Below are positions 14,397 through 49,243 of a DNA stretch of 64,000 nt, one piece after another (the first letter of the stretch is position 1; each line of letters begins with the position of its first letter). Under the pieces are notes generated by a model. The model worked only from the letters and a program-made list of their open reading frames with translations, was not told the DNA's origin and searched no databases. The DNA comes from Oceanipulchritudo coccoides (GTDB taxonomy: Bacteria > Verrucomicrobiota > Verrucomicrobiia > Opitutales > Oceanipulchritudinaceae). Made by a program: the position numbers and the translations under genes. The stretch is from contig NZ_JAAGNX010000003.1 in assembly GCF_010500615.1 (NCBI RefSeq), positions 620,001-684,000 of the forward strand. Direction: 5' to 3'.

Positions 14397-15161
14397 CTAC
14401 ATCCTGTAGATACCACCGTTGATGTCTATTGTCGCTCCGGAAATGAAGCCATCATACTCGCTGGCGAGGAAAGTGATTGTGCGGGCAATATCTCCGGCGT
14501 TACCGGCTCGCTGCAGGGGAATTTGTGAAATCGTGGCATCAGCGGACTCCTTCGTCGTGTGCTTGTCGTGAAAACGGGTTCCGAGGATCAAGCCCGGGGC
14601 CACCGCATTTACCCGAATGCCCTTGCCTCCAAGCTCGGCGGCAAGGGAACGCGTCCAAGTGAGTACCGCTCCCTTTGTTGTAGAATACGCCAGTGAGCCG
14701 GAGTGGCCTCCACAGCGACCGGCAAGTGAAGCAAGGTTTACCACGCTCGCCCCGTCCTGCGCCTTTTCAAGTGCTGGAAGGGATGCCTGCGTGACGTGAA
14801 GCATCGTTGTCATGTTCACATCCAGAACCGTCTGCCAGAACTTTACGTCGATCTCACCAAGGTATTTTCGGCCGATTATGCCACCCACATTATTCACCAG
14901 CACATCCATACCACCGAGGAACTCAATGGCCTCCTGCACACAAGCTGTGGCTTCGCCTTCATCGGTCAGGTCGCCCCGTCCGTAAGCGGCCCGCTGCCCT
15001 CTCGCCTCGGCTCGGGCGACCAGCTCCTTCGGCCCCTCCTCACCCATGAAATAATGGATGAAAATATCGCAACCCGCATCAATCAGATGCTCCGCCACCG
15101 CTTTACCAATTCCTTGTTCCGCACCGGAAACAAAGGCATTCTTTTTGAGTAATGATCCCAT
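14397..15161 (-). CDS. Short-chain dehydrogenase/reductase
   Basis: A 254-residue NAD(P)-dependent SDR. It has GAEQGIGKA (cofactor-binding glycine motif, residues about 13-21), NNVGG (near 90), catalytic Ser in NLASLAG and YSTTK (Tyr/Lys pair), and the C-terminal FISGATIDINGG. Beside PL6 lyases it could reduce 4-deoxy-5-hexoseulose uronate to ketodeoxygluconate, a step done by SDR enzymes in alginate users; this is inference. ATG 15161 is the family-typical start; a longer frame to 15212 is unlikely. An ATAATTAT palindrome lies just upstream. Confidence 0.85.
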   Translation of the reverse strand: MGSLLKKNAFVSGAEQGIGKAVAEHLIDAGCDIFIHYFMGEEGPKELVARAEARGQRAAYGRGDLTDEGEATACVQEAIEFLGGMDVLVNNVGGIIGRKYLGEIDVKFWQTVLDVNMTTMLHVTQASLPALEKAQDGASVVNLASLAGRCGGHSGSLAYSTTKGAVLTWTRSLAAELGGKGIRVNAVAPGLILGTRFHDKHTTKESADATISQIPLQRAGNAGDIARTITFLASEYDGFISGATIDINGGIYRM

Positions 15162-15175
15162 TTTATAATTATGAA
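15162..15175. promoter_or_regulatory. AT-rich motif upstream of SDR gene
   Basis: TTTATAATTATGAATT directly precedes the SDR start codon on the - strand and contains the palindrome ATAATTAT (15165-15172). Its TTTATAATTAT half equals the left arm of the repeat at 10557. It may be a regulator site overlapping the ribosome-binding region. Confidence 0.3.
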
Positions 15176-15323
15176 TTGACTCCTGTTTGAAACGCAAGCA
15201 CAGAAAACTCACCTGGGCAAATTAGCTGCCAATGAGGGGTTCACCGGTACAATTGGGGTTGACCGGAAGGCCCCAGCCCACCGAATTCCCCGATTTGGAA
15301 ATGCGCTAAATACAGAACAGGGA

Positions 15324-16271
15324 TTACGGACGATAGACCCAGATCCAGGCGCCGTCTTCAGAGGCACTCGTTTCTTCCAGATACATCCAGCCCGTGAGAG
15401 CTTCGTTGTATATCCACGGGGCGTTGACTACATTGACCAAGCCCAACCAGTTGCCTGTGTCAGCATAGCCATCCTCAACCATGTAACCGAGCCAGCCGGA
15501 AGATCCCCCTTCGCCAATCGAATCACCAGTCTTGAGGACCACATTGTCAAAATAGACTTCGGCGCCACCCTTGGCGTCGCTGTCTCCAAGGAAACCAAAG
15601 CGGCTGATACCGGCGGCTGGATCATAATCAGCGGTTCCGGTCTGCAGAAGGATATCCTGGTCGGCAAGGACGCCGTCGACAAAGATCGAGTACGTAAGCG
15701 GTTGGAGCGTGTAGGCTACCCCACCCATGGTGAAGTCCAACGTATTGACAGTGGAATTGTTGGCCACGAGAGAAACCGAATAGGTTGTTCCACCATCGTG
15801 TTCGCCGGACACACTGCTTGTGCTCAAACCACCATTGTCGCCGTTGTCATAACCAAAACGGAAATCCGTGTCCCATTTGAAACCAAGTTGTAGCCCGGTC
15901 TTGCTGTTGGAAGTGGGATCGATGTCATTGCCAAAGCGGAATCGAATTTCACCATTCGAAGCGGTTCCCGGGGCACTGCCATCCGCATTGTAGGTAGGCT
16001 GGCTTTCATTACGGAAATCGAAGTCCAACTGGAATCCGTCCATAAGAGGACTAGTTAGGTAGACATAAGCTTCCGGCTTGTCCGCAGTGCTGAAATCAGC
16101 AATCCGCAATTCACCGGAAGAATCATCCGGGGTGGAACTGGCGTCGCCCTTGATTGTGGAAAAGTTTGCCGCAAGGTCGCCTGTATCCATGAAGATACTT
16201 GTGACTTCAGCGAAGGCCACACAGGCCGACGCGCTAGCAATTGTGAAGGTAATGAGCTTTTTCATATTCAT
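15324..16271 (-). CDS. Secreted LamG-like protein with W-rich C-terminal tail
   Basis: A 315-residue exported protein with a clear signal peptide (MKKLITFTIASASACVAFAE). The body (about residues 25-250) looks like a concanavalin/LamG-type beta-sandwich (FQLDFDFRNES, FRFGYDNGDNGG, AEVYFDNVVLKTG), a fold that often binds sugars. After a Gly/Ser linker (GEGGSSG) the last 58 residues hold a tryptophan-rich module (TGNWLGLVNV, APWIYNEALTGWMY, GAWIWVYRP) that is very like the end of the octaheme cytochrome at 47702-49243. The function is unknown; glycan binding at the cell surface is a guess from its position between uronate-use genes. ATG 16271 and ATG 16265 are both possible. Confidence 0.75.
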   Translation of the reverse strand: MNMKKLITFTIASASACVAFAEVTSIFMDTGDLAANFSTIKGDASSTPDDSSGELRIADFSTADKPEAYVYLTSPLMDGFQLDFDFRNESQPTYNADGSAPGTASNGEIRFRFGNDIDPTSNSKTGLQLGFKWDTDFRFGYDNGDNGGLSTSSVSGEHDGGTTYSVSLVANNSTVNTLDFTMGGVAYTLQPLTYSIFVDGVLADQDILLQTGTADYDPAAGISRFGFLGDSDAKGGAEVYFDNVVLKTGDSIGEGGSSGWLGYMVEDGYADTGNWLGLVNVVNAPWIYNEALTGWMYLEETSASEDGAWIWVYRP

Positions 16272-16597
16272 CTGATTAGGGATTGGATTAGTTAGAAAAT
16301 TTGATGGTTCTTGACAGAGAACACGCAGTCAAAGGTTCTAGATAGAGATATTTATAAATATGAATAGAGATTTCTGAGGCAAGGACAATCGAATATATTC
16401 TCTCCAACCAAAGGTGAATCAGAGGCGGCATACAAATTCATAAGCCTTTATGCTTAATGTACTTATCGAAATATTTAACGATATCCCCAAACAGAATAAG
16501 ATGTTTAATAATAATTTCCATCGCCAGACCTAAACGCCGGTTAGGCTTATCTGGCGGAGCTTCGGTTCTACCAACTCTACGGAATCAGGTGATCATT
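16272..16597. promoter_or_regulatory. Intergenic control region with palindrome
   Basis: This 326-base AT-rich stretch has no gene. It includes ATATTTATAAATAT (16348-16361), a perfect 14-base palindrome 77 bases upstream of the secreted-protein gene, and probably its promoter. The remainder, toward the aldo/keto reductase stop, shows only weak AT-rich repeats. Confidence 0.5.
16348..16361. promoter_or_regulatory. Perfect 14-base palindrome
   Basis: ATATTTATAAATAT is fully self-complementary and lies upstream of the - strand secreted-protein gene. It resembles the TTTATATTTATAAA repeat upstream of the second PL6 gene (19428-19441). Confidence 0.45.
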
Positions 16598-17596
16598 TCA
16601 TCGAATGCGACTTGGATGCATCCATAGGTCACACTCCTGACCGAGAGTCGCCTTCAAGGCTGTCGTTGCTGCAGAGAGGGAGTCAAGTTGCTGACGATCC
16701 AACCGTAATTTGGCCACAGCCAGGTTTTCGGCCAACTGCGAGGGTGAGCGTACTCCAACAATTATACTCCCCACCGCCTCCTGGTGGAGAAGCCAAGCGA
16801 GGGCCAGGGGAGCCATATCCAAACCCCATTCGCCGGCTAGGGCGCGAATTGCCTCCAGCGTGGCAAAGGTCAGATCTTCACAACCCGGTTCATTGTGACT
16901 GCTGTATGGACGATCGGCACGGAAGTGGCGGCTGCGGGCCCGGCGATCGGGAACTTCATCCGCGTCGGAAAACTTTCCCGTGAGCAATCCCTGCATAAGT
17001 GGACTGTATGCAAGGATGCGCATCCCTTTGTTGATCATCGGCGGAATCACATCAAATTCAACTGCCCGCGCCAGGAGAGAATAAGGGAACTGGTTCGTCG
17101 TTGCCGGTCCCCCGCCGGAAAACCAGTCTGACAAATCCCGCGGACCGAAATTACAGACCCCGAATGCGCGGATTTTTCCCTCTGATTGGAGATCTCGAAG
17201 CGTCGCGAGCGTCTCATCGAGTGGAAGGACATGGCTCGGCCAATGCACTTGGTACAGGTCGATGATGTCCGTTTGAAGACGGCGTAGACTCTCCTCGCAG
17301 GATTGACGCATGCCAGTTTCCGTCAGGTCATGGCGGCCAACCTTGGTTGCGATCACCACCTCATCCCGACATCCGCGGAAGACATCCCCAAGAAGTTCTT
17401 CTGAAGCGCCGTCTCCGTAAACGGGCGCTGTATCAAAAAAGTTGATACCTGCTTCCAAAGCCGCATGCAGGGTTGCAGTGGATTCTTTCCGGTCCTGTTG
17501 ACCCCAGTATTCGCGGCCAGCCATGGCCCAGCATCCGATCGCCACCCGGCTCACGTGGAGTCTGGAACCATCCCCGCACTCAATTGGAATTTTCAT
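16598..17596 (-). CDS. Aldo/keto reductase
   Basis: A 332-residue NADPH-dependent reductase with the family tetrad: Asp and Tyr in FFDTAPVYGDG (residues about 52-62), Lys in VIATKVG, and His in LYQVHWP. The C-terminal GSIIVGVRSPSQLAENL block binds cofactor. The start codon overlaps the stop of the upstream PL6 gene as ATGA (17593-17596), so the two are translationally coupled, and GAGGG precedes it. This tight link suggests the enzyme reduces a keto-uronate derived from the lyase product, although the lyase is exported. The substrate is unproven. Confidence 0.88.
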   Translation of the reverse strand: MKIPIECGDGSRLHVSRVAIGCWAMAGREYWGQQDRKESTATLHAALEAGINFFDTAPVYGDGASEELLGDVFRGCRDEVVIATKVGRHDLTETGMRQSCEESLRRLQTDIIDLYQVHWPSHVLPLDETLATLRDLQSEGKIRAFGVCNFGPRDLSDWFSGGGPATTNQFPYSLLARAVEFDVIPPMINKGMRILAYSPLMQGLLTGKFSDADEVPDRRARSRHFRADRPYSSHNEPGCEDLTFATLEAIRALAGEWGLDMAPLALAWLLHQEAVGSIIVGVRSPSQLAENLAVAKLRLDRQQLDSLSAATTALKATLGQECDLWMHPSRIR

Positions 17597-19413
17597 TTAT
17601 AGTCCCTCATCAATTCCTCTTGGGATGCGTCCAAAGTTTGTGCGGCCTTCATCCAGAAAAACATCCGGGGAGTCATTTCATCCAAGGGAATGCGCAAAGA
17701 CCAAACTTCTCCCTCCCGGCTTGCTTCAAAAAGCGCTGGCCAGGCTGTGCTGCCGTCCAGTTCACCGCGGCGCAGGTCAAGCTCACCCACCAAGGGGATG
17801 GCCCCCAGATTCAGTTTCCATACCAGCTCACTGGCGCTGGAAAATTCAACTGCATGAGCGGTGTCCAGAACAGACTCGGACAGCCAGCTCGGTCCGGCTG
17901 TGTCGGGAGAAACCGGTGCCAGCAACTGTGTCCGCTCAGTTCTTTCATCAGCGCCAATATCAGCTCCATCTGACCGCAGGTCACCATCCAGATCAGACTC
18001 GAGTCCTGCGTAAAGTATATCCGCAGTATCAATCGCGGCACCCGTCATGCCCGGCTGCATCAGCCAGTCCTTGCGCAACTCCAAATTTGGGTTTGCCTCC
18101 ATAAAACCCGGGTCACTGATGCCGGCGGTCGCTCCGTGAAGAAGGTTGCCAGCATAGGTCATTGCCGATGGCGGTTCATCCCACTGCACAAGCGGACCGG
18201 TCGCCGATACAATCAGGTTGTTCGCAATAATGGTATCAGTTGGCCTGTAATTGTTATCCTTTGAGCCCAGTTCACAGAGCTGCAGCGATTCCCGGGCATC
18301 AAGCACAGTGTTATGGACGACCTCGACATTGCGCACTTGCTCGTACCCTCCGTTTGTGTCCGCTCCGGTTACACGCCCCGCTGCCCGCAAGGTGATTCCC
18401 GCTCGAAGTCCGGTCCCACGGATGCCCTCAATATAATTGCCACGTATGAGGTGGCCTTCGCCGTTGAGACGGATCCCACCCGTGCCGCTACGCCCCATGC
18501 CAAGGATCAGGTTGTTTTCGACGACACAATGGTCACCATGGCGCAGGACCAAGGATCCCTTGCAGCCTATCAACACGTTGTTGCGATACGTGTTATAGCT
18601 GCTTTTGTTCGAGATCACTTCAATCTCCCCGTCGCATTGAAAGAACCGGTTGTGCTCCACAACGATATCCCCGCGAAAATTGGCATAATTGCTGGTCCCC
18701 ACTCGTACTGTTTCAAATTCATTATCGGACCAGCCAACCGGATTTGGACCAAAGCTGTTGTGGTCAATCCGATGGGCAAACGAGGCGTAGGGTGTTCCGT
18801 CATCCCCGTCTTGCGGGACCATTTCCACAACGATCAGGGCTCCACGGACAATCTTCCCCGAAAAGTGACAATGATCCACCCGGTTGTTTGTTCCGTAAAT
18901 CTGCACCCATTTGGAATTTGCCCAGATCTTTTCCGTGGTATCCCCGTCCTCGTCGTCATCATCACTGTCCACTTCCCAAAAGTTGTAGTCGACGAATGCA
19001 CATTCCGTCAGACGGCAGTGGTGTGCGTGCCGGTTGCCATTGTTGGAACGGAATTGCACCAACGATGATGGAATATCCCGGTCGTGGTCATCTCCATTGT
19101 AGAAATAAAACCCGGAAACCTCAATGTAGTCGCCCCCAAACTTGATCGCGCTTTCACCTTTGAACATCACTCCGCCAGGCGTTTCCGCCCGGAGAAGAAT
19201 CGGCGCCCCCGCAATTCCACTCGCCGACACATGGATCCGTTGGTCGAGGTAAACACCATCCCGCCATATGATCGTGTCACCAGGCCCCACCTGCCCCCCG
19301 TCAAAGAGATTCGCCAGCTCGTCATCGGAGCCAATCCAATGCTCCGCAGCCCACCCAGTCAGTGGCATAAGCACCACCCACAACATGATCCGATAAAGTT
19401 CTTTCCATATCAT
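17593..19413 (-). CDS. PL6 family alginate lyase / chondroitinase B-like
   Basis: A 606-residue exported lyase with a signal peptide (MLWVVLMPLTGWAAE; the ATG at 19386 is an alternative start). The right-handed beta-helix carries ISNKSSYN (catalytic Lys 270) and LVLRHGDHC (Arg 291), again 21 residues apart as in characterised PL6 enzymes. Unlike the paralogue at 6186-8978 it lacks Ig and LamG extensions; after the helix there is only a short beta-rich tail (LDLRRGELDGSTAW, MFFWMKAAQ). The two paralogues probably split labour, for example on different alginate blocks or at different sites. It is coupled to the downstream aldo/keto reductase by an ATGA overlap. Confidence 0.88.
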   Translation of the reverse strand: MIWKELYRIMLWVVLMPLTGWAAEHWIGSDDELANLFDGGQVGPGDTIIWRDGVYLDQRIHVSASGIAGAPILLRAETPGGVMFKGESAIKFGGDYIEVSGFYFYNGDDHDRDIPSSLVQFRSNNGNRHAHHCRLTECAFVDYNFWEVDSDDDDEDGDTTEKIWANSKWVQIYGTNNRVDHCHFSGKIVRGALIVVEMVPQDGDDGTPYASFAHRIDHNSFGPNPVGWSDNEFETVRVGTSNYANFRGDIVVEHNRFFQCDGEIEVISNKSSYNTYRNNVLIGCKGSLVLRHGDHCVVENNLILGMGRSGTGGIRLNGEGHLIRGNYIEGIRGTGLRAGITLRAAGRVTGADTNGGYEQVRNVEVVHNTVLDARESLQLCELGSKDNNYRPTDTIIANNLIVSATGPLVQWDEPPSAMTYAGNLLHGATAGISDPGFMEANPNLELRKDWLMQPGMTGAAIDTADILYAGLESDLDGDLRSDGADIGADERTERTQLLAPVSPDTAGPSWLSESVLDTAHAVEFSSASELVWKLNLGAIPLVGELDLRRGELDGSTAWPALFEASREGEVWSLRIPLDEMTPRMFFWMKAAQTLDASQEELMRDYK

Positions 19414-20901: not shown

Positions 20902-21151
20902 CGATAACGGTCAACCTGCTTCCTCTTCGGGAGGAACATAGGAGGAACATAGGGACAGGTAAACAGTTACGGTACGGTGCGGGTGGGAGCCGAATCAAAG
21001 GGAGCTACTGTCTGATTGATTAGTTCTCTACGATCAAGCAGGCGGGGGTTCGCGACTTGACTGTCTCATTCGAATCGGATACATTTATTAAACTTCGCCC
21101 CCGTATTTCGTACACAGATTACACACAACATTAGAGCGATTGGCAGATCCC

Positions 21152-22618
21152 ATGAGGATAGCGCGTTTCAGGGCCAGGTTTACCGGGTTGCTTTTTACCG
21201 TAGTACTGTTTTTGGCGACGCTCGCGACGGCTCGCCAGCACCTCGTGGAAATCCAGACATCGCACAACAGGTGGCCGGATCCGGAAGCTGACTGCCAAGC
21301 GAGCCCCCTCGTATGGCCCGCGTTGCCCAATATCATTGTCCAGGTCCTCAAGGACGGGGCACCTGTTGCCCTTGTCAGAACAGAACGCGGCCGGGATCCG
21401 GAAACCAACACACACCTCGCCCTCGCGTATGTCACACTTGAGCCGGGCACCTACAGCGTGCGTGCCTGGGATATGACAGGTGGTTCGGAGGTTGTTGCCG
21501 CGGCTGTCCGTGGCAGGAACGATTTGCATCCGGGCAGCATCACCCCTCCCTACGGGGATTTCAGGCTCTTTATCCATGACGACAGTGCCTACGATGGCGA
21601 TTACTACAAATGGGACTTCCGGGCAATTATCGGGATATGCCCGGGGGCGGCTGTTACCGGTGGCAACTCACCCGTCATCAAGAGTGTCGATGCGCCCGGT
21701 GTCTGGATCGCGGAGGACACCTATCAGGTCGAAATTACCTATGAAGACCCGGACGGGGACATCACATGGATTCAATTCCTCGAAGTGAATCCATTTGAGC
21801 CCGGATTGAGAGTCTTTGATGAATACGATCCTGGGGTTTCCGGCAGCAAGGAGGGGATCATCTACCGCAATACGGGTTGCACGGCTATTGATTTCCCGCC
21901 CGATTTCACTTCCGGCAAGGCCGGATTCCTCGTGAGGCTTCGGGACAGCGAGAGCAACGTGGGACAAAACCAGTTCTTCTACACCTGCAGCAGGGACCCG
22001 GCCACCATCACCCCACCCCCGGGCGGCTATTCCATGGATGGACAATGGGATACGGAGCTTGGCAAGCTTGAGGCGAGTCAGAGCGGTGACGGAGTGGCGG
22101 GCTCCTTTGCTATGGATGGCGCCGAGGCACGCTTTGATGGCGTACTGGACGGGCAAACCGTTTTCGGCACTTGGTCACGAGCCCCCTCGTTTGGGCCTCC
22201 AGATGACTGTGGGGATCTCTGCCTGACCATTCATCCCGATGGAACAGAGTTCATGGCCGTCTATCGAGTTGGTTTCACCAGTGATGACTGGCAAACCTTG
22301 TCGGGAAGGAAATCTCTCTGGACCGGCGCAATCGGGCTCGCCAACAACTGGTTCTGGCTGGACTGGTTTGGGTACTTCAACGTGGCGCACGAATCGTGGA
22401 CTTACCACCAGCAAAACCACTGGCTACACCCGATTGGCGACAATCCGGAGAACATCGTTTTCTGGGACAGCGGAATGGAGGCCTTCTGGTGGACTTCATC
22501 CAGCTTCTACCCCTTTGCCTTCAGGTTTTCCGATGGCTGCTGGTTGTATTACCAAAAGGACTCGATGGATCCTCGAAGATTCTACAACTATTGCACCCTC
22601 AGCTGGGAAGAGTGGTAG
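21152..22618 (+). CDS. Secreted protein with W-rich C-terminal module
   Basis: A 488-residue exported protein I do not recognise. A signal peptide (FTGLLFTVVLFLATLATA) is followed by a region with DPEADCQ and a beta-sandwich (about residues 35-125), then an Ig-like segment (VEITYEDPDGDITWIQF). Next comes a small beta-barrel-like block (MDGQWDTELGKLEASQSGDGVAGSF...FGTWSRAP). The last 100 residues are tryptophan/tyrosine-rich (WFWLDWFGYFNV, ESWTYHQQNHWLHPIG, FYPFAFRFSDGCWLYYQKD) and resemble the tails of the proteins at 15324 and 47702 but longer. ATG 21152 is the best start; no strong ribosome site is visible. Function unknown; surface location likely. Confidence 0.7.
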   Translation: MRIARFRARFTGLLFTVVLFLATLATARQHLVEIQTSHNRWPDPEADCQASPLVWPALPNIIVQVLKDGAPVALVRTERGRDPETNTHLALAYVTLEPGTYSVRAWDMTGGSEVVAAAVRGRNDLHPGSITPPYGDFRLFIHDDSAYDGDYYKWDFRAIIGICPGAAVTGGNSPVIKSVDAPGVWIAEDTYQVEITYEDPDGDITWIQFLEVNPFEPGLRVFDEYDPGVSGSKEGIIYRNTGCTAIDFPPDFTSGKAGFLVRLRDSESNVGQNQFFYTCSRDPATITPPPGGYSMDGQWDTELGKLEASQSGDGVAGSFAMDGAEARFDGVLDGQTVFGTWSRAPSFGPPDDCGDLCLTIHPDGTEFMAVYRVGFTSDDWQTLSGRKSLWTGAIGLANNWFWLDWFGYFNVAHESWTYHQQNHWLHPIGDNPENIVFWDSGMEAFWWTSSSFYPFAFRFSDGCWLYYQKDSMDPRRFYNYCTLSWEEW

Positions 22619-47701: not shown

Positions 47702-49243
47702 TTATTTAGGAGCGTAGGCCCAGCCACCATCGCTGGAGATCGCGCCACCCGGCATGTAGATGTATTTGCCAATGTCCATGACCCAGATCCATGGATCTGC
47801 ATCCACATTGATCCAGCCCATCCAGTCACCGGTATTGACCCATGGGTCGCTCTGCATGCTGGTCTGAAGCGCCTGGGCATTTTCAAACCCGAGTTCGTAG
47901 AAGTTGATGCGGCTTCCCCAAGTATGGCAATCCGTGCAGGTAAGGGCCATTTCCTTTGGAGCCACCATGTGATTCTGGATCCAGAACATTTCCGTATCGA
48001 CGATGCCAACCGGTCCCACAAAGGTGCGTCCGACATAATCCATACCGGAAGTCAGTGCGGCATCCCAGTCAAAGGCCTTCCAATAGGCAGTCGTGTCTTC
48101 CGCATTGTTCGGGAAGAGATTCGGCACGGCAAAGGTGTTCGCCCCAGCGTCGTAAGGCTGACGGCCGACAAAGCGCTTTACCGGGAAAATGTAGGCATTG
48201 TCATCATTGATGTCTCCACCAAGCTTGTTGATGGTCACACGGCCTGCTGGTAATTGATCATCGAGAAGTGTGTAAGTGACTGTTCCGTTGAACCACTTTG
48301 TTTCCGGGATGACATTTTCCTTCCAGATGAAGGACCCCTTCTTGGTGTCATAGATGACGTTTCCGTCAGCGTCCCTCGTGACAATCTGAGATCCATCAGG
48401 ATTCTTCTGCCCGGCTGTAGTCCAGTCCCAGTACATTTTGGTTGCCTTGCCGCCGCGAGCATAGGCCGGAATGTGACAGGTCTGACAGGCCACCGTATCG
48501 GCGTGCGTGTTGAGGAAGCCGTTTGCGTGAACCGGTCCCTCTGCCTCGTGGCAGTTCTTACACATCATGTTGTCAGGAGCAGCCTGCGAGTAGCGGGAGC
48601 CCACGATGTCGTGCGGGTTGTCCTCGTCCGGGGCGTGACAATCCGAGCAGACCATGTTTCCACCGTCGGCACTCATGTGCACGTCAAGCTCGCGGGATGG
48701 ATTCAAAAGCGATGAATCCATGCTGCCATGTTTCACCCCTTCACCACCACCTCCGTAGAAGTGGCAGATACCACAGTTGTTGCGGTCTGGCAAATCGACA
48801 CTGCGTGCCACCGCAGTCAAGTCGACTCCTGGATCAGGCGCACCGGCCCCGGTCGGAACCTTCTTGTAGGTACCCGTCTGGTCATGACAAACCAAGCAGT
48901 CAATTTTGCTCGGATCATCGAAATCAAATGTATTGTCCGCGTAACCGACACCAATGTGGCAGCTTGTGCAACGCGGCTCGTTCGAGGCAACCGCGATACA
49001 GTAGTTGTTAATCACGTTCTTCTTGCCAACAACCTGGCCGGTTGCCGAATCGGTCTTCTCCCAGGTCCAGTGCAGGCTGTTCATGACATCCGACTGCAGG
49101 TTCGGGTGGAAGTTCTGGTGGCAGTTCAGACAGGTTGTCGCATCGACGTAGTTCATGCTCCCGTGCTGGGCAATCAGCCCGAGCGGAGCAAGCAACAGAA
49201 GGCCACTGGCTATCCGTAACAACATTTGGGGGGTACTTTTCAT
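47702..49243 (-). CDS. Octaheme c-type cytochrome, tetrathionate-reductase-family-like, W-rich tail
   Basis: A 513-residue exported protein. The signal peptide (LLRIASGLLLLAPLGLIAQ) is followed by eight CxxCH heme motifs: CLNCH, CTSCH, CLVCH, CGICH, CSDCH, CKNCH, CQTCH, CTDCH. The text SLHWTWEKTDSATGQVVGKKNVINNYC resembles the octaheme tetrathionate reductase (OTR) group, whose members reduce tetrathionate, nitrite or hydroxylamine in the periplasm; the true substrate is unknown. After the last heme, residues about 460-513 form a W-rich tail (TGDWMGWINVDADPWIW, GGWAYAPK) found on two other exported proteins here. ATG 49243 begins the signal sequence. No partner genes (quinol dehydrogenase, maturation) are adjacent. 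Confidence 0.88.
   Translation of the reverse strand: MKSTPQMLLRIASGLLLLAPLGLIAQHGSMNYVDATTCLNCHQNFHPNLQSDVMNSLHWTWEKTDSATGQVVGKKNVINNYCIAVASNEPRCTSCHIGVGYADNTFDFDDPSKIDCLVCHDQTGTYKKVPTGAGAPDPGVDLTAVARSVDLPDRNNCGICHFYGGGGEGVKHGSMDSSLLNPSRELDVHMSADGGNMVCSDCHAPDEDNPHDIVGSRYSQAAPDNMMCKNCHEAEGPVHANGFLNTHADTVACQTCHIPAYARGGKATKMYWDWTTAGQKNPDGSQIVTRDADGNVIYDTKKGSFIWKENVIPETKWFNGTVTYTLLDDQLPAGRVTINKLGGDINDDNAYIFPVKRFVGRQPYDAGANTFAVPNLFPNNAEDTTAYWKAFDWDAALTSGMDYVGRTFVGPVGIVDTEMFWIQNHMVAPKEMALTCTDCHTWGSRINFYELGFENAQALQTSMQSDPWVNTGDWMGWINVDADPWIWVMDIGKYIYMPGGAISSDGGWAYAPK

Follow-up and report, generated by a model that had tools for sequence, protein, structure and literature searches.

An aromatic C-terminal tail on diverse exported proteins of Oceanipulchritudo coccoides and its relatives alternates with PEP-CTERM on paralogous bodies

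In a 64,000-nucleotide stretch of the genome of Oceanipulchritudo coccoides (the window, G000:C3:620001-684000, where G000 is the own genome of 3.52 Mb), an exported protein and an octaheme c-type cytochrome end in similar tryptophan-rich tails, which raises the question whether this tail is a module in its own right and what it does for the proteins that carry it. A sequence-only reading of the window had noted the likeness and proposed an anchor, a sorting signal or a carbohydrate-binding unit.

When the 58-residue tail of carrier 1 was used as a single query, the octaheme tail was matched with an E-value of 5.2e-5, and in the own genome 35 matches were obtained below E 1e-3 (50 at E≤10). 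A profile of 34 own-genome short tails, including both short tails of the window (A1), gave 38 matches in 37 genes at E≤1e-5 and 54 matches at E≤1, so that the likeness extends well beyond the three proteins of the window in which it had been seen. The tails in A1 have a mean pairwise identity of 0.36, and their consensus is W-x-GY-x5-G-x-VDTG-x-WLGW-x2-V-x3-PWVYS-x2-L-x2-W-x-Y-x-P-x7-G-x-W-x-Y-x-P. The relationship between the two short window tails was borne out by a second profile made of 52 short tails from other genomes only (A3), which recovered both of them with E-values of 5e-21 and 3.7e-19 among the window frames. A chance likeness of tryptophan-rich sequence was ruled out by the match counts and by the register, which is kept over 58 residues. 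The window carriers, their parts and the pairs of genes discussed below are collected in Table 1.

Table 1. Tail carriers of the window with their parts, and paralogous gene pairs that differ in their C-terminal ends
Feature	Position in window	Strand	Remarks
Carrier 1, exported protein of 315 aa with short-form tail	15324..16271	-	body without Pfam match
Short-form tail of carrier 1, 58 aa, runs to the stop	15327..15500	-	profile matches; AlphaFold2 pLDDT 92.4; equals G000:C3:635327-635500
Carrier 1, probable signal peptide, MNMKKLITFTIASASACVAFA	16209..16271	-	by eye
Carrier 2, octaheme c-type cytochrome, TIGR04315	47702..49243	-	start chosen at ATG of MKSTPQML; 49321 in the ORF list
Carrier 2 tail, short form, following the TIGR04315 domain	47705..47863	-	matched by single query, A1 and A3
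Carrier 3, exported protein with long-form tail	21140..22618	+	no Pfam match at E≤0.001
Carrier 3 tail, long form; the model covers 90 aa	22346..22615	+	profile place 22358-22612; pLDDT 70.4
Swap pair L092/L158			73% over 241 aa
Swap pair, two genes in L078			58% over 195
Swap pair L199/L045			39% over 322; opposite strands; L045 tail divergent
Swap pair L198/L005			38% over 184
Swap pair, two genes in L043			long-form tail; 43% over 155

The tail occupies a nearly constant place in its carriers. In the own genome, 48 carriers with closed frames were found (37 short, 11 long), and the tail ended at most 9 residues from the stop in 47 of them; a strict signal-peptide rule was positive in 41. 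A larger set comprised 100 short-form and 37 long-form carriers from the own and related genomes, whose loci are mostly best-scoring matches. Here 96/100 short-form and 31/37 long-form carriers had 6 residues or fewer between the end of the tail and the stop, and 97/100 and 35/37 had 12 or fewer, the exceptions being L035, L083 and L118 (short) and L110 and L129 (long). With a looser signal-peptide rule, 76 of 91 short-form and 15 of 16 long-form carriers with closed frames were positive, compared with 8 of 43 background ORFs of the window; the rule is a crude heuristic that is positive in just 41 of 57 PEP-CTERM-like proteins. The tail thus stands nearly always at the C-terminus and mostly behind a signal peptide, but there are exceptions to both, and a rule without exceptions was not borne out. 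The signal peptides that had been read in all three window carriers are plausible by eye; that of carrier 1 was missed by the strict rule and caught by the looser one. Two or more tail-sized copies are present in 15/100 short-form carriers, and Lys or Arg is the final residue in 50/100 (a raw count with no background rate).

The bodies in front of the tail are diverse, as the sequence-only reading had proposed from the window. By single-linkage clustering at E≤1e-4, 38 own-genome short-form bodies fell into 30 clusters, and 50 short- and long-form bodies into 41. In a Pfam scan of 40 of the 48 own-genome carriers (35 short, 5 long), 17 had a match at E≤0.01 and 15 a match over the family cut-off. 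The families include GH16 (in five carriers), GH10, GH76/88, a Peptidase_S9-type hydrolase, FGE-sulfatase, CBM96 with a beta-helix, DUF4465, Endonuclease I, Exo_endo_phos, BNR_2 and Flg_new_2, and none of the listed Pfam stretches overlaps the tail. Carrier 1, scanned separately, had no Pfam family at E≤1, and the label 'LamG-like' given to it earlier is not supported. Carrier 2 has 8 CXXCH motifs and matches TIGR04315 with an E-value of 2e-150 over residues 62-477. Adjacent tail-bearing genes with similar tails, encoding proteins of ∼280-440 and 390-420 residues, were observed in four genomes (L166, L169, L170 and L173 in G012, G005, G008 and G009) and form a possible conserved two-gene unit. 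The neighbourhood of carrier 1 (14397-19413) encodes a Chondroitinas_B-family lyase (17593-19413, minus strand), an SDR protein and an aldo/keto reductase, together with a kinase-like protein whose AAA_18 match stays below the cut-off, and we take it to resemble an alginate or uronate use cluster.

That the tail fits no named family was likewise upheld, as only isolated, weak matches of single members were obtained with Pfam (34 short tails, best E 0.0072 to PF06323; 26 long tails, best E 0.029) and with NCBIfam (52 short tails, best E 0.013). AlphaFold2 on A1 predicts the short tail to be a small all-beta domain (mean pLDDT 92.4, pTM 0.74) with strands at residues 6-9, 12-14, 21-23, 29-32 and 37-40. 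The long form, described by the profiles A2 and A4, repeats a PWVY...GW-x-Y hairpin, and four successive hairpins are seen in the model of the carrier 3 tail, which was computed from 3 rows. The long form is covered by A4 without any window sequence; among the window frames this profile matched the carrier 3 tail at E 4.5e-18, the short tail of carrier 1 at E 5.5e-6 and the octaheme tail only at 0.05. A comparison of both forms by hhalign gave a probability of 90.3 and an E-value of 1.5e-6 over 27 columns only, and on these alignments the two forms are related.

Searches with both models gave no significant fold match (best E 2.4 and 0.54; best Z 2.7 for OCRE and 3.3 for OspA). Of 134 chains compared with the short model, just two reached Z≥2, both of them OCRE domains, from RBM10 and RBM5 (one at Z 2.7, with an rmsd of 3.8 over 50 aligned residues, the other at Z 2.5), and weak Pfam matches to OCRE occurred in 1 of 34 short (E 0.095) and 1 of 26 long tails (E 0.048). 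OCRE is a domain of nuclear RNA-binding proteins; the scores lie far from significance, and the likeness is taken as a convergence of aromatic strands. With A1 and A3, which share no row, the first PDB match was in both cases the choline-binding domain of LytB (7pl5; E 0.0063 and 0.0017); A3 also matched 7pl2 (E 0.3) and 4cnl (E 0.39), alongside an unrelated flagellar protein (E 0.19). A control run with reversed A1 gave a best PDB E-value of 1.0, to unrelated proteins. The LytB scores are sums of several weak stretches (best single i-Evalue 1 for A1 and 0.3 for A3), and with A4 no PDB match below E 1 was obtained, so that the likeness of the tail to pneumococcal choline-binding repeats is marginal. 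The Pfam model gave no support for membership of the choline-binding family: PF01473 had one below-cut-off match elsewhere in the own genome and none at the tails, it was absent among the families listed for the 34 short tails, and no choline-binding chain was among the fold-search matches listed.

The distribution of the two forms differs. Of 55 genomes, counting the own one, 16 have the short form; they belong to a single family, in which 16 of 17 members have it, and it was found in 0/38 genomes from other families of the order. With A4, the long form was found in 27 of the 55 genomes, spread over 8 of the order's 28 families, with up to 52 matches per genome, some of which may be short tails or second copies. 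Families f1-f4 and f19 are among those that have it, and the two genomes each of f8, f11 and f14 gave no match. In phylum samples, in which 16 and 19 candidates were scored per genome and carriers can be missed, the short form was seen in 4/387 genomes, all in the same family, and the long form, with a 9-row profile, in 7/288; a phylum-wide tail was rejected on these counts. When named genomes were scanned for the motif VDTGDW[LM]G, 35 stretches came up, of which 10 are relatives, in four Opitutales/Verrucomicrobia MAGs that are already among the genomes searched (G002, G007, G009 and G015) and are thus not independent. In G074, which belongs to the distant family f47, several carriers (L109, L116, L121, L126 and L131) have tails that are like the long form and closely resemble one another, and these genes lie near each other on contigs C45 and C20.

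The best evidence for what the tail does came from comparing the bodies of 100 short-form, 37 long-form and 63 PEP-CTERM-like proteins, the last class being approximate, as it was defined by our own pattern; frames shorter than 100 residues or open-ended and bodies shorter than 60 residues were left out. Seventeen cross-class pairs were obtained at E≤1e-5 (12 PEP/short, 4 long/short and 1 long/PEP). Eight of them were aligned in detail and five are counted as swaps: the body is shared up to the junction, after which one protein has an end of the VPEPSTYALL...RRR type and the other the aromatic tail. In each of the five, both genes lie on one contig, at most ∼7 kb apart. L226/L145 and L204/L017 were rejected, as homology up to the junction was not clear. 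In L092/L160 homology reaches the junction, but the pair spans two genomes and is not among the five. Because paralogous bodies swap between the two ends, the tail appears to do the kind of job that PEP-CTERM does, and the earlier anchor, sorting or carbohydrate-binding proposal is thereby backed as far as a role in localisation is concerned.

Both kinds of end occur side by side. The own genome has 3 exosortase and 16 PEP-CTERM matches beside the tail, and exosortase (PF09721) was matched in 26 of the 27 long-form genomes compared with 14 of the 28 others, a difference that genome size confounds. G011 (94% complete) has 22 long-form matches and 2 short-form matches in one protein and neither an exosortase nor a PEP-CTERM match. 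G017 and G042 (family f2) have 1 and 2 exosortase and 12 and 21 long-form matches, respectively, and no PF07589 match at E≤0.01. Among 177 genomes of the order, the octaheme family occurs in 3, each from the genus of the window, and 3 of the 4 proteins over the family cut-off have the tail (the tail-less G001:C292, below this cut-off, is excluded). G002 encodes two octaheme cytochromes (L193, L196), one tail-less and one tailed, the latter of which may act at the surface.

The tail is a module with a C-terminal place, diverse carriers and an alternation with PEP-CTERM on paralogous bodies, and very probably it serves as a C-terminal localisation module for exported proteins. More specifically, it could be a small folded aromatic beta-hairpin module that keeps exported proteins on the surface of the cell or within its extracellular matrix, a reading to which we give about an even chance. 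Carriers would leave by Sec export and cross the outer membrane by some route. The rows of Trp and Tyr in the tail would then mediate non-covalent binding to a ligand of the envelope or the exopolysaccharide, and the enzymes would thereby remain with the producing cell. By analogy, its mode of action would resemble that of choline- or glucan-binding repeat modules. With three secretin matches, the own genome offers an outer-membrane channel, to which we draw no link from the tail; one of these matches (L247, G000:C2:790254-790757) lies ∼2 kb from an exosortase match (G000:C2:792540-793460). Binding is favoured over a signal that is cut off because the tail is doubled in some carriers, because the long form has extra hairpins and because LytB is the first PDB match; the predicted fold, the two lengths and the conserved richness in Trp and Tyr argue in the same direction. 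The LytB similarity, marginal as it is, leans towards binding. The absence of a PF01473 match at the tails, of a PDB match below E 1 with A4 and of a significant fold match weighs against this reading, and neither a ligand nor a partner gene emerged from the searches.

Possible but rather doubtful is that the tail is instead a C-terminal secretion or sorting signal for an undescribed outer-membrane export or attachment machine, comparable to type IX, for which matrix binding is not required. The nearly strict C-terminal place and the basic last residue agree with a recognised export signal as well as, or better than, with binding; moreover, most carriers have a single copy, PEP-CTERM, with which the tail swaps, is itself a proposed sorting signal, and the cargo of the tail resembles type IX cargo. 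The doubled copies and the two related forms of different length stand against it, as does the lack of a partner among the findings, and the Pfam families listed for the 34 short and 26 long tails (E≤1) include no type IX sorting-domain model. SprA (PF14349) was matched in 0/19 genomes, the control genomes being likewise without match. It is unlikely that the tail is a carbohydrate-binding module that brings enzymes to external polysaccharides as their substrates. Modules of this kind commonly have aromatic platforms, glycoside hydrolases make up several of the carriers and a Chondroitinas_B-type lyase gene adjoins carrier 1, but the tail is also found on an octaheme cytochrome, on nucleases and on proteins of no known kind, the GH16 carriers L026 and L028 have a CBM6 already, substrate targeting is not what the PEP-CTERM alternation points to, and no Pfam CBM was among the families listed for the same tails at E≤1. 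That the tail has no role in localisation and acts as a stabilising cap or dimerisation hairpin is very improbable; such a function would suit the small self-contained model but leaves both the presence of one tail on many unrelated bodies and the PEP-CTERM alternation unexplained.

If the tail is indeed a surface tag, surface proteins would become predictable from sequence by an element that has no Pfam or NCBIfam model and occurs on dozens of proteins per genome, and many uncharacterised exported proteins would gain a likely location. The bacteria of this group include polysaccharide degraders, and to our knowledge little is known about how such bacteria keep their extracellular enzymes with the cell. 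The paralog pairs with PEP-CTERM or the tail represent a natural swap experiment. The host group of the tail has an outer membrane, and if the hairpins bind glycan, anchoring of the choline-binding type would reach outer-membrane bacteria.

C-terminal tags shared by many exported proteins are familiar as a kind; no description of such a tail, or of a folded aromatic tag alternating with PEP-CTERM, was found in the parts of the literature covered by our search. The C-terminal domain of type IX cargo is a small beta domain that ends many exported enzymes, and the tail, by its predicted fold, is alike in this. Choline-binding repeats are aromatic beta-hairpin units that can be repeated (PMC4929436), and the tail, as modelled, resembles them in both respects; unlike these repeats, the tail has a nearly strict C-terminal place, is not matched by PF01473 and occurs in a host group with an outer membrane. 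The closest parallel is PEP-CTERM, the proposed sorting signal of the exosortase (EpsH) system (PMC1569441): both ends occur many times per genome, at the C-terminus, behind signal peptides, on diverse bodies and at the same place on paralogs, whereas the tails, in the alignments, are without PEP motif, transmembrane helix and basic cluster and are predicted to fold. Tentatively, and at somewhat under even chance, we propose that Opitutales have an undescribed localisation system parallel to PEP-CTERM/exosortase, in which a folded aromatic C-terminal tag would be recognised by a dedicated envelope partner, a glycan or a protein machine. The long form of this tag would be spread over several families and the short form confined to one; each genome would use it on dozens of proteins, and some paralogs would be kept in two versions, one for each system.
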